A DNA stretch of 64,000 bases, taken from Obelidium mucronatum. Lineage: Eukaryota; Chytridiomycota; Chytridiomycetes; Chytridiales; Chytriomycetaceae. Position numbers and translations under genes: made by a program. The first letter of the stretch is position 1, and each line of letters opens with the position of its first letter. The stretch spans positions 620,001 through 684,000 of the forward strand of contig JAIVFH010000001.1 in the NCBI GenBank assembly GCA_025765595.1, given 5' to 3'. Shown here in pieces: positions 53,265-58,403 of the stretch. Under the pieces are notes generated by a model that worked only from the letters and a program-made list of their open reading frames with translations, did no database searches and was not told where the DNA came from.

Positions 53265-53272
53265 AAAATCGA
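53265..53272. repeat. Left target-site duplication (AAAATCGA)
   Basis: Eight bases AAAATCGA directly abut the left terminal inverted repeat. The same eight bases in the same orientation abut the right repeat at 56880-56887. Confidence 0.85.
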
Positions 53273-53461
53273 CACCCGGTCTTTTCCTGTGTGTCAATAA
53301 AAGATTGAGAAATTTTTTCCGTCTCCCCTATCTTTCATTGGCAGGAAAAAGAGACGCTTTTTGAGACCGGAGAAAAGACAGAAAAAAGCGAAGTCCCGTC
53401 CAAGTCCATGAAGAAACTTCAAGTGCGAATCAACTCACCAACGGGCCGCAATCGAATCGAC
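53273..53461 (+). repeat. Left terminal inverted repeat (189 bp)
   Basis: Identical, as reverse complement, to 56691-56879 over all 189 bases by direct reading. It ends inside coding sequence, just after the codons for SPTGRNRID. Confidence 0.88.
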
Positions 53462-54290
53462 GTCAACCGAAAGCGGTACTGACTCTTCAATCGGCCAGCA
53501 GCTGTCGACGACGACCCGGAAGCGACGGCAGAGGCCTTTACGGCTGCCAGCGAGATGCAGCGCCAACAGCAACGGCAGCGGCAGCGGCGGTAATTCATCG
53601 TGTCCTCGGGCAGACGTCTTCACGCGGCTACGGCGAAGACTTTGAAACAATGGACGCATCGATCAATGGTAGTGTCTTTATTCTTCATACTCTATTCCAT
53701 CCCTTGCAGGTCCTCATTGATATTCACTAATATTTACAGTACCTCTTCTACGTCTTCTTCTTTTTCTTCTTCTTCTTCTTCACAGGTATTGAAGAGTCTG
53801 ACGACGCCGAAAACGAGATGACGGTGAGTTCAATATTCGCTTGCAGTCCCAACAAACGCGTCGCTAACGTGGATCTCTGATTCTGAAGTTTGGGTCTCGC
53901 TCATGCACGACTCAACCACGTGCCACTTCCTGTCACTGTTAGAGCGCCAGAAAACGTTCCGGTTGGACACTCATTGCGCGAATCCAGGCGTGGTTGGTGC
54001 TAGATGCGCTGCTGCTGGCGCCGGCGCTGGCGCTGGACATCCCGTCTGACCTGCGGGGCTTTTTGCTGACCCGACCCAACTATTCAGGATCATCTCCCCC
54101 CTTACAAATTGCAGCGACTCTTGGAATTCGAAACTGTCTTCTAAAGCTTGACATAACTCAAGCCAATATGTCGAAGGTGCTGAAGCTCTTATCGTGTCTT
54201 GCGGTGACTTTAGATCTTTGCTGGTGTTGCATGTCTCTTAAATCTCCTTCTAGAATTGACCGATTCCAATTCGCCAGTTACTTCCAATAA
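53408..54290 (+). pseudogene. Left inward gene of the element, unknown family, frame-broken
   Basis: ATG at 53408 inside the terminal repeat gives KKLQVRINSPTGRNRID, then the frame is lost. A Gln/Arg/Ser-rich stretch follows. GYGEDFETMDASIN before a GTAGTG donor matches GGYNEDFETMEASTHF of the right copy. The next exon after a pyrimidine tract (near 53785) is IEESDDAENEMT, again matching EESQESG in the other copy. GC-rich ORF at 53994-54290 reads DALLLAPALALDIPSDLRGF, unknown. The several breaks suggest a decayed copy or unresolved introns. The function is not recognised. The N-terminus looks vaguely ubiquitin-like, which I would not rely on. Confidence 0.4.
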
Positions 54291-55155
54291 TTCTGCAGAT
54301 CATTTGATCTGAGCAACAGCCGTTCTATGAAGTGGAAGAGGAATTGTTTTTGGAAGAACACAACTAAACAAGTCAAACTCTGCAGCAACCGTGCTGGATC
54401 CAAAGGGCAGCACATTCACCAAATTTACGTACAGCTGTTAGTGGCAGCACCCAACGATCCGTGTGCAATGGTCAAAAGTGTTTCATTGTAGTTGCTTATA
54501 ATTAACTGCTAACCCCAGCGTTGCATATGCAAATAAACTCTTCTTACTTTTTTCATTAATTAAGATTAATTTTTTAAGTCATGCCACCTCCAATGTGTTA
54601 TTCTCATCAGAACACATAGCAAACCTATGTTGAATTCTTACCTCTTTCACGCGTTTTCAGACAAAATAAACTCTCTTAGTATTAGGTGTGAATGTCTAGT
54701 AGCGCTCGAGTTAGTATATTTCGCGTAATTGAGAATATTGTGTTTTGGCAGATATTCAACTTCCGAAGTATATGGTTTATGCCTAGAAGGAAAAGACAAT
54801 TCAATAGAATGCACTAATATTAGTACAAATGTACAGTTTGACGAGGGTCTGTTCAAAGATGCTTGAGATCTTGAAATCAAAAGTTTGTTGTGGTGTTTGG
54901 AAAAAGGTGATAAAAATAAAAATAAAAACTATTTTTTTGAACCTCATTTATTCATTTGAAACATTACTTTAAGACTTTTGATTGTATTTTGAGGGCGTTG
55001 GTGGCGTTATGGGTCTGTGAAAGTCAAGTTTTGGTTTCGGAAATGTAATCTTTTGCCATTATCTCCTTTATTTCTCAGTATATTTCAACCAAACGTTAGA
55101 ATCAATTTAAATTTGTGTACTCGATAAAGTTATCAGAAAATGGTTGGTATGTGTA

Positions 55156-56744
55156 TTAAGGTGTAACCTTGAACTTGGACAGAGTATTCACCCACTCCTG
55201 TCTTGTGAGAATCCAAACCCAGCGTGACTCAGGGCTACAATTCAATCCCGTCCAGCCTTGTTCATTGTTTTTCAGTTTAGGACAGAGTTTGATGTGGTTT
55301 GGTCCAGCTTTTGACTTGCATTCCCTGGCTGCCATCATCCATGCACACAACAACCCTTGAGAGTTACCAACACAAACATTCAGATAAATATCCATCTTTA
55401 TTGAATTTTCAAACCATTGACAATCTCACTGCAAAATGGTCCCACAAATTGCAGCTGAAGCTGCTGGTTCTTAGCATCCTTCCCACCTCTTGGAAAAGAG
55501 TGAATGCTCTATGTGGTGTTTCACAATGGCAAACTGTTGAATTGCTTCCATGTATGGTTGATAACAGCCAGTCGCTTTAGAATCCTTGAAGTCAGAATCA
55601 AAAAACTCCATGTTTGAAGGAGTTCCCAGCGGGACACGCGCAAGACGTCTGGCAGAACTTCCCACTACGCCTCGCGGGCGACACGATGCGCGGGTTTGTC
55701 AACGGACCGACCGCTGGGGCTGGCGGCGTCTCTCGGCAAGTTTCGGAGTTTGAGACCAAAGGACACCAGTTGGGTCTGATCTGACAAACTTATCATGAGT
55801 AGAATGACAACAGACTAGAAGTTAAGGACGCTTACTGGTCTGCTTTATACGAGATGGAAAAAACCCATGATGCAATAGCACGACACACATCTCCTTCCCG
55901 ATTTCATGGTTGGTGAACGTTGCCAAATTCAGCAAATGCAACAGCACTGGTTGTCTTCCAACTCCATGAGCGTACTGGCAGCACCGAATTTCTTTCTTTA
56001 CAGCCACGCCGCCAACTATTGTATGGGAAGCTATAAAGACTTATCAAGAGCTTGATGGCAGTGGTGATTTCGTCGGCGTAACGTAGCGTGACTTGTGCAG
56101 ATATGGTAGAAAAGGCTTACTAACTGGTTATTAGCACTTGAAGGTTGGGAGCCCGGCAAGTTGCATTAACACATTGGCTAATTGGGGTGGTGTCGACAGT
56201 CTCCAAACAGGCAACGGCCTAAACCAGCTGGGGAAACAGCCCCCGAAACGAGGCCTTGAACTCTTGGCGGCTTTTGGACCAATCTGCTTGACTTCCTTAT
56301 TCAGTGGCAGTGAATCCAAACTCGGCGCCAGGCTCATCGGTCCACCCAGCAGCGGAAAAGTCTGGGGTGGATTCAGCGACGCCAGACTCTTGAGACTCTT
56401 CCGTATCTGAAGAAGAAGGGGAGGAACAGTTAATGTAAATGACAACCTACAAGGATTGGAATATAGTGAAGAATGAAAACACTACCTTGAAGTGGGTTGA
56501 TGCTTCCATTGTTTCGAAGTCCTCATTGTATCCGCCGCGAGAACTTCTGGCCGCAGACGGTACGGATTGCTACCGCTGCCGCTGCCGTTGCTGTTGGCGC
56601 TGTATCTCGCTGACAGGCAGTGACAGCCGTAAAGGCCTCTGCCGTCCCTTCGGGGTTGTCATCGACTGCAGCTGGTGGTTGGTTAATACTGTCGATTCGA
56701 TTGCGGCCCGTTGGTGAGTTGATTCGCACTTGAAGTTTCTTCAT
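55156..56744 (-). CDS. Right inward gene of the element, unknown protein (diverged copy)
   Basis: Starts at 56744 within the right terminal repeat with the same KKLQVRINSPTGRNRID, then SINQPPAAVDDNPEGTAEAF. A frame change leads to GGYNEDFETMEAS before a GTAGTG donor (near 56480). The next exon, after a TTCTTCAG acceptor near 56411, is open for about 90 codons (IRKSLKSLASLNPPQ through CFPSWFRPLPVWRLS). A separate minus-strand ORF (55395-55156) with spaced cysteines (ARECKSKAG, HIKLCPKL, GLNCSPESRW) ends SKFKVTP and may be the last exon. Which pieces join is uncertain. Not recognised. Confidence 0.38.
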
Positions 56745-56879
56745 GGACTTGGACGGGACTTCGCTTTTTTCTGTCTTTTCTCCGGTCTCAAAAAGCGTCT
56801 CTTTTTCCTGCCAATGAAAGATAGGGGAGACGGAAAAAATTTCTCAATCTTTTATTGACACACAGGAAAAGACCGGGTG
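56691..56879 (-). repeat. Right terminal inverted repeat (189 bp)
   Basis: Exact reverse complement of 53273-53461. Outer end CCGGGTG is followed at once by AAAATCGA. Confidence 0.88.
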
Positions 56880-56887
56880 AAAATCGA
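56880..56887. repeat. Right target-site duplication (AAAATCGA)
   Basis: Matches 53265-53272 exactly and in the same orientation. The next gene's ATG follows 21 bases later. Confidence 0.85.
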
Positions 56888-56908
56888 CGCAAAAAAACGA
56901 ACAACATC

Positions 56909-58403
56909 ATGTCAGCCACCGACTTGCTACGATACGCTGGGTCACCCAAGTACTCAACGTTCTCTATGGATGATGCTTCGAGTGCTGACATACAGTTTGG
57001 TCAAGTCGAGGAAACTCCTTTGACTCGGTCGCATTGGGTCAAGGATCTGTTTGTCCCGTGAGTTGTTCACCCCCTAACTGCCCATCAAGTTGAACCGGCA
57101 CTGAAACTCGATCGCATTCAGAAAAGAAACGGGCGATATGAAAGTTCTATGGGCGAAAAGGACCCTTGCTGCCATTGGGGCTGTTGCATTTCTGTCGGTT
57201 GGGTTCTTTTTTTTTTCCGAACTGAACCCATGTCATGTTCTCCAACTACACAACATTCAGGCTGCCTGTGAAATCTGGATTATTGTCAACGAAGCAACAA
57301 TCAAAAATCATCTTCTTGGATCAGTTACTGAAAATGGTGCAAACGACATTTGGTTCAACTTCAAAGTGGAATTGACGTTGGGTTCACAATACTTTTATAG
57401 CAATGAGTTAATAGTAAATCTGATTTTTATTTATTTTATTTCTTTATAGATATCATTCTGTGTTTCTTGCTTCAATTGGATTCTGGGTTTTTGTTTTGTG
57501 GAATGCGATCATGTTGGTGTTCTTCTGCTTTTTGGGATGAAAAGGGGTGTTGATTCTCAAACATGTAAAAAACAGGCATCAGAACTTTATCCAAATCATT
57601 GCAATCAATTTTTACAATTTCGGGCTTTTTATTTACTCGATTCTGCAGATTGTGCAAACAGCCAATGATTTGAATAATGTTCGTGGACAAGTTAAAGATC
57701 CAAACGTTGCCAGCAATAGCGGGTACTTTCTCGCAGCACAAATTCTATTACCTTCTATTATTGGGCTATTTATTCCTATATATTGCTACCTGACATTTCA
57801 ACTGCACCGAGAGTTTGGCTGGCGAATGTATAGAATCACAGGCGGTGAAAAGGTCGTTACACGAGGTAAACGTAGTCGTATTATTTAAACATTAATCTCG
57901 CTGATTTTCCCCACTTTTATGTTTGTGTTTAAGCATTTACATCTTACCACATTCTCCTGCTTCTACTAAAGTTCTCTGCCTTCAGCGGCACCGCTTTCAT
58001 CATTTTAACTCTCGTCCTCACATCCATCACTGAAAAGGGAAGAATCGTCATCCCCCTCGTTGGCGCCCTTGTTGGAATCGCGACCCTCGTGGCAGGATAC
58101 TACGGCGCCCGTTTCGAAATCAAAGGACTCATGGCTTTTAGCATTATTGGCAGCCTGACAATCTTTGGATACACAATCAGCCGTTTTGTAGACGCATTCC
58201 GTCGCGGCGGTCGGGAATTTGAGCGTGCCAAAATCCCGTTTCTCATGTTTGGTGTCTTGAGTGAACTCATGTGGTTGCTTACAATTGTTTTTTCTGTTGT
58301 GTGTTGGAGGAATTTTGGGAAGGCTGGGTTGAAGGATGTGTTGGATCAGGAATCGCGGAGGGCGAAAGGGAAATATCAACCTCCACCTACTGTGATTGAG
58401 TAG
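56909..58403 (+). CDS. Fungal multi-span membrane protein family, copy D
   Basis: Starts SATDLLRYAGSPKYSTFSMD, with a longer cytosolic N-terminus than the other copies, then RKETGDMKVLWAKRTLAAI after the first intron. Shared blocks: ACEIWIIVNEATIKNHLLG, NDIWFNFKVELT, YHSVFLASIGFWVFVLWNAI, IAINFYNFGLFIYSILQIV, SGYFLAAQILLPSIIGLFIP, the signature REFGWRMYRITGGEKVVTR, SYHILLLLLKFSAFSG, GYYGARFEIKGLMAF, and an end with LKDVLDQESRR. The C-terminus is PPPTVIE, not the IDLDA of A-C. About five introns, no certain frame breaks. The mobile element lies immediately upstream and may supply or disturb its promoter. Confidence 0.78.

Follow-up and report, generated by a model that had tools for sequence, protein, structure and literature searches.

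A probable non-autonomous derivative of a KDZ-superfamily transposon in the chytrid Obelidium mucronatum

The closest described relatives of the element reported here are probably transposons of the KDZ (Kyakuja-Dileera-Zisupton) superfamily. In Cryptococcus neoformans, the active elements KDZ1, KDZ2 and KDZ3 are described in excerpts of PMC12810828 as having terminal inverted repeats (TIRs) of 241, 139 and 169 bp, with target-site duplications that measure 8 bp in KDZ1 and range from 4 to 8 bp in KDZ2 and KDZ3. Duplications of 8 bp are likewise given for Zisupton and for a Dileera family in excerpts of PMC12730594, where Kyakuja elements are listed with 7-bp duplications and CA..TG termini but no TIRs, so that long TIRs are not universal among KDZ elements. 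For Zisupton in Pristionchus, the relevant excerpt of PMC9297572 reports TIRs and no duplications. The fungi with structurally described KDZ transposons are few, at least in the excerpted literature compared here. No paper on the transposons of Obelidium mucronatum was found in the open-access literature searched, and none of the matches listed there combined KDZ with chytrid; one of them, PMC11258239, contains Zisupton together with chytrid.

The window, by which we mean the whole 64,000-nucleotide stretch of O. mucronatum (Chytridiales) DNA that was analysed, lies on a contig referred to below as C1 and contains an element of 3,607 bp (53273-56879). Its two arms of 189 nt are fully complementary, as an earlier, sequence-only reading had noted with the right coordinates, and inverted similarity continues inward in weaker form (77-87% in pieces) to about 53811 on the left and 56372 on the right. 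The two 8-mers that abut the element are identical, which also agrees with that reading. The parts are as follows.

53265-53272, no strand: left target-site duplication, AAAATCGA (from the sequence)
53273-53461, plus strand: left TIR, 189 bp, beginning CACCCGGTCTTTTCC, 100% complementary to the right arm
53462-53811, plus strand: imperfect inward continuation of the left arm (inverted pairs I2-I6, I9 and I10, at 77-87%)
54252-55460, no strand: interior without a reading frame, in common with the C11, C22 and C114 copies at 80-86% (from comparison of copies)
55489-55605, minus strand: KDZ transposase remnant, 51% identity to the KDZ gene of C12 over 39 residues
55837-55908, minus strand: KDZ transposase remnant, 42% over 24 residues
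56144-56281, minus strand: KDZ transposase remnant with one internal stop, 33% over 46 residues, colinear with the other two
56372-56690, minus strand: imperfect inward continuation of the right arm, with inverted similarity to the left side
56691-56879, minus strand: right TIR, 189 bp, terminating CCGGGTG, 100% complementary to the left arm
56880-56887, no strand: right target-site duplication, AAAATCGA (from the sequence)

The element is one of a family. When the left arm was compared to the complete assembly (694 contigs, 48.3 Mb), a check that had been suggested from the sequence alone, 25 matches were obtained. A stricter end pattern, CACCCGGTCTTTTCC with at most one mismatch, gave 22 matches compared to 2 for the same pattern written backwards, and the pattern CACCYGGTYTTN{4,18}AATAAA located 20 ends on 12 contigs, with none for its control. 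Both ends are present in eight copies (C1, C13, C11, C22, C114, C58, C128 and C180), the C13 copy being the same 3,607-bp element in different flanks, with 99.9% identity to the window copy. Seven of these eight are bounded by an exact 8-bp duplication, every one different (AAAATCGA, GTCATTCA, TGTATGTT, AAGATATT, CACATTTC, ATTTTATT and AGAAGGCT), and the flanks of C180 match at seven of eight bases (GGGAAAAA/GGGAAAAT). Given that all 56 pairings of non-partner flanks differ at three or more bases (mean 5.3), the agreement between partner flanks is not due to chance. Single ends occur on C124, C182, C17 and C468, the last two being homologous contigs with the same end, and remnants without ends are found on C67 and C24. 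The right end of C114 has lost one G and was for that reason missed by the pattern. In C11 the right end is present as a tandem duplicate, 44 bp apart (L010 178-235; C11:157577-157634), of which the outer one fits the 8-bp duplication. Four additional one-mismatch matches to CACCCGGTCTTTTCC were checked: the one at C180:43253 is a family end, and those on C3, C95 and C130 show no further similarity to the element beyond the motif. A search with the translated arm peptide of C180 recovered family copies plus weak matches on C6, C53, C97 and C520 (E 2e-6 to 9e-5).

Two homologous sites without the element were found, as the sequence-only reading had proposed to look for. Of the homologous contigs C128 and C182, the former has a 1,144-bp copy and the latter a single AGAAGGCT with no element. 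The target in this case is part of a terminal repeat that belongs to a DUF6589 transposon; two copies of this repeat elsewhere (C16, C56) are also unfilled. The second site is on C449, the homologous contig of the window locus (L056, near 190), whose identity to the window is 96.8% in the right flank and, over 177 bp, 95.5% in the left flank. The empty site reads AATAAAAATC followed by AAAAAAACG and, compared to the joined window flanks, lacks five bases at the insertion point (GACGC, or CGACG in the alignment); a second gap of 3 bp lies 15 bases further on. The five-base deficit can be read as an old indel or as the scar of an excision. Since C13 carries the same element in other flanks and C449 represents the same locus without it, misassembly is an unlikely source of the inverted arm. 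C17/C468, C128/C182 and window/C449 are all homologous pairs that diverge by a few percent, and the assembly therefore seems to hold both haplotypes in part. The ATG (56909) of a downstream reading frame starts 29 bp beyond the element end (window 56880-56911), so that just one of the alleles carries the 3.6-kb insertion immediately before this gene.

How recently did the element move? The C1 and C13 copies differ at only 4 of 3,607 positions and occupy separate sites, whereas the alleles of the window locus are 3-4% apart. If rates of change are similar, the movement of this subfamily would be recent when set against the divergence of the alleles. The perfect arms had been taken earlier as a sign of either recent insertion or recent homogenisation; perfect arms by themselves do not establish youth, because mixed arms occur within single copies. 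The arms of C1 are identical throughout their 189 bp, and those of C13 differ at positions 33 and 36. Among 19 arms compared, position 36 is A in four (both of C1, one of C13 and one of C58) and G in 12, the arms of C180, C17 and C468 not being in register there. The mixtures in C13 and C58 suggest that sequence may have been exchanged between arms or copies. Conservation is strongest towards the outside: over the outer 80-100 bp most arms are 90-100% identical to the window left arm, and beyond 300 bp nine of the 11 arms that extend there are only 53-79% identical to it, the exceptions being the left arms of C13 (100%, same subfamily) and C128 (79-95%). The ends of C180, C124, C17 and C468 are more divergent or shifted, and similarity is lost after about 60 bp for the C182 end and about 80 bp for the C58 left arm. 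Copies that share ends and have different insides would be consistent with an enzyme that acts in trans and recognises the ends.

The element does not encode such an enzyme in working form. In an alignment of the C1, C11, C22 and C114 copies, no common reading frame and many frame-breaking indels were seen by eye. Ten open reading frames of the element gave nothing above the Pfam cut-off, with one weak CVNH match (E 0.16); the KDZ catalytic domain PF18758 was not found in any of the ten, and the element is for this reason not classed as an autonomous KDZ transposon. The sequence-only reading is supported in that this is a real transposon insertion and in the non-autonomous character that it had considered. 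A different picture emerges from comparison with the transposase genes of the same genome, for which eight family sequences were divided into 272 six-frame pieces and compared to 18 transposase loci. Pieces of the window copy match KDZ genes with a best E of 5e-13. In a translated comparison, three fragments on the minus strand (56281-56144, 55908-55837 and 55605-55489) follow the order of the C12 KDZ gene, with a joint E of 4e-15 unmasked and 3e-14 masked. They correspond to the N-terminal half of KDZ transposase genes, and the best single fragment comprises 39 residues. The alternative that had been raised earlier, a family with an unrecognised enzyme, gives way to these recognisable remnants. 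Antisense matches to the KDZ locus L037 (E 3e-4) and one out-of-order match to L038 were taken as noise.

The other copies add to this. C11, C22 and C114 also match KDZ genes, including portions further along the gene; in C11 and C114 the matches fall on both strands, which fits the inversion seen inside the interior, and C180 has weak matches (best E 2e-4). Two KDZ proteins from databases, P0002 and P0003, match C11, C22 and C114; at an E of 0.01 neither matches the window copy, and neither begins before the end of the part that is preserved there. Exact 12-mers of the KDZ locus on C124 account for 383 of the 387 residues of P0002. In the matched loci on C12 and C198, PF18758 is located in downstream exons; this domain has 16 matches genome-wide, 15 of them above the cut-off. 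At an E of 0.01, none of the eight family sequences, including those of the window, C11, C22 and C114, matches any of 11 MULE, DUF6589 and rva_4 loci. As controls, reversed KDZ loci were matched by nothing, and five reversed elements match no KDZ locus. Some of the 11 are matched when loci are taken whole, with their flanks or nested transposons (L013, L016 and L014 via flanking or overlapping sequence, and L054 to a MULE locus at E 0.001). In the search with unmasked pieces, a window piece of 40 residues matched an rva_4 locus (E 0.046) and a C180 piece of 18 residues a MULE locus (E 0.022). In several copies, portions of the arms translate to a serine-rich, acidic peptide, and we infer that these may be first exons inside the long arms.

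Is there an autonomous partner? The sequence-only reading had suggested a search for longer copies with the same ends and a transposase, and no intact one was found in the assembly by the two end patterns. None of the 16 PF18758 matches lies between pattern-found family ends; among them, the KDZ gene closest to a family end is on C124, 16 kb from the lone end of that contig. The C12 KDZ locus is 98% identical to that on C124, the C12 contig has no family end, and no alignment of C124 to C12 was obtained around the lone end. Several candidates were rejected. The long C11 copy (9.8 kb) holds a nested unit whose terminal direct repeats of 236 bp are 99% alike, which we read as an LTR retrotransposon, and the long C22 copy (6.1 kb) holds one whose inverted ends of 45 bp are 84% alike. 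A Plavaka-like reading by eye of reading frames on C124 found nothing in Pfam. DDE_Tnp_4 on C67 was taken as a nested neighbourhood, with only two of 37 matches (both on C67) less than 10 kb from a known family remnant. The DDE_Tnp_4 gene fragment itself (L046 6276-6665; C67:128778-129164) is about 300 bp from a piece of element interior and has 37 related matches genome-wide.

The DUF6589 gene in C180 was likewise dismissed as the missing enzyme, as it belongs to a different element that lies nested within the C180 copy and has ends and a 9-bp duplication of its own. That element (C180:38213-43222; L057 with L050) has 377-bp inverted repeats, 99.5% identical, and the duplication ACAAAAACC. 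DUF6589 (PF20231, of unknown function) looks like a transposase, with thirteen matches that have open frames of 896 aa. The copies on C16 and C56 (L062-L067) have common inverted repeats of at least 268-306 bp with ends TAGGCTCAGTG, and 9-bp duplications ACTTTATGC and TCTTACAAT. No paper was found for DUF6589 by name in the open-access literature searched.

Taken together, we consider it very probable that a KDZ-superfamily transposon gave rise to the element, which would be a non-autonomous cut-and-paste transposon mobilised in trans by a KDZ transposase. Internal deletion, rearrangement and decay would have turned a KDZ ancestor into the present element. The transposase gene, formerly read leftward from the right arm, would have been reduced to shreds of its N-terminal half, with the catalytic part gone. 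The enzyme now absent from the element is most likely KDZ: a transposase from elsewhere in the genome would recognise the conserved outer part of the arms (about 80-100 bp), excise the element and insert it at an 8-bp staggered cut, the repair of which would leave the 8-bp duplication. Among the three kinds of enzyme listed earlier for duplications of this length (hAT, P and KDZ), KDZ fits best. In a different form of mobilisation, which would come into play because the assembly retains no element whose ends are cognate and whose enzyme is intact, the outer 80-100 bp of two subfamilies that are ~20% different inside would have been kept near-identical by exchange between arms or copies, and both would be moved today by a diverged KDZ enzyme of elements with different-looking ends. 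We regard such cross-mobilisation as rather unlikely.

As no autonomous copy with family ends was found by the two end patterns, the KDZ fragments might be captured passengers. This brings in Mutator-like elements (MULEs), because a non-autonomous MULE carrying KDZ passengers and moved by a MULE transposase would have much the same architecture. According to excerpts of PMC5225508, Muta1 of Aedes aegypti and other MULEs make 8-9-bp duplications, TIRs exceed 100 bp in 12 of 14 mosquito families, and non-autonomous derivatives have common ends and different insides. The window element has the long TIRs and a duplication within the 8-10 bp that mark MULEs, and the genome has six MULE matches, five of them in open frames of more than 500 aa. 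However, no fragment similar to any of the six MULE loci is present in the window element (E 0.01), its remnants are all of KDZ type and stand next to the right arm in the order of the gene, and the pattern-found family ends are not at the contigs or places of the MULE matches. We therefore judge a MULE origin improbable.

The rva_4 transposase (PF24764) deserves mention as a mover because a family end of 63 bp (95% identical) on C182 has an rva_4 gene directly on its inner side. The similarity of the C101 relative stops at C182:8962, precisely the joint with the end; the relatives on C101 and C124 are without a family end and no inverted ends were seen around them, and end-like motifs near the rva_4 genes of C124 and C45/C15 lie within coding sequence of other genes (frames by eye). 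On these grounds rva_4 was dropped and is very improbable as the enzyme. The three rva_4 copies are 95-96% alike in DNA, with different flanks and no visible inverted ends (L039 6975-8500; L017, L058, L059). Finally, hAT and P elements both make 8-bp duplications, but their inverted repeats are short and the hAT target pattern nTnnnnAn fits none of the eight left-flank 8-mers, making a derivative of either similarly improbable.

Compared to known systems, the probably KDZ-derived family of O. mucronatum resembles KDZ1-3, as far as excerpts of that work describe them, in being fungal DNA transposons with long TIRs and, for KDZ1, an 8-bp duplication. The difference is in size and content: KDZ1-3 encode KDZ transposases and have a length of about 9-11 kb, whereas the window element has 3.6 kb and remnants only. 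The 8-bp duplication is shared with Zisupton and a Dileera family and the CA..TG termini with Kyakuja, as these are characterised in excerpts; Kyakuja departs from the 8 bp and 189-bp TIRs of the window element in both duplication length and absence of TIRs. MULEs, in the account excerpted above, are alike in long TIRs, duplication length and derivatives with common ends, but encode a MULE transposase, to which the window element has no similarity. What it does have are the features of a KDZ derivative, namely interior homology to KDZ transposase genes, an 8-bp duplication and long TIRs, and the family would show that KDZ elements can leave non-autonomous derivatives. The ends of this chytrid family are defined and its 8-bp duplications consistent; it also has an empty site that is clean and bears marks of recent movement, and it offers concrete substrates for testing KDZ transposition.
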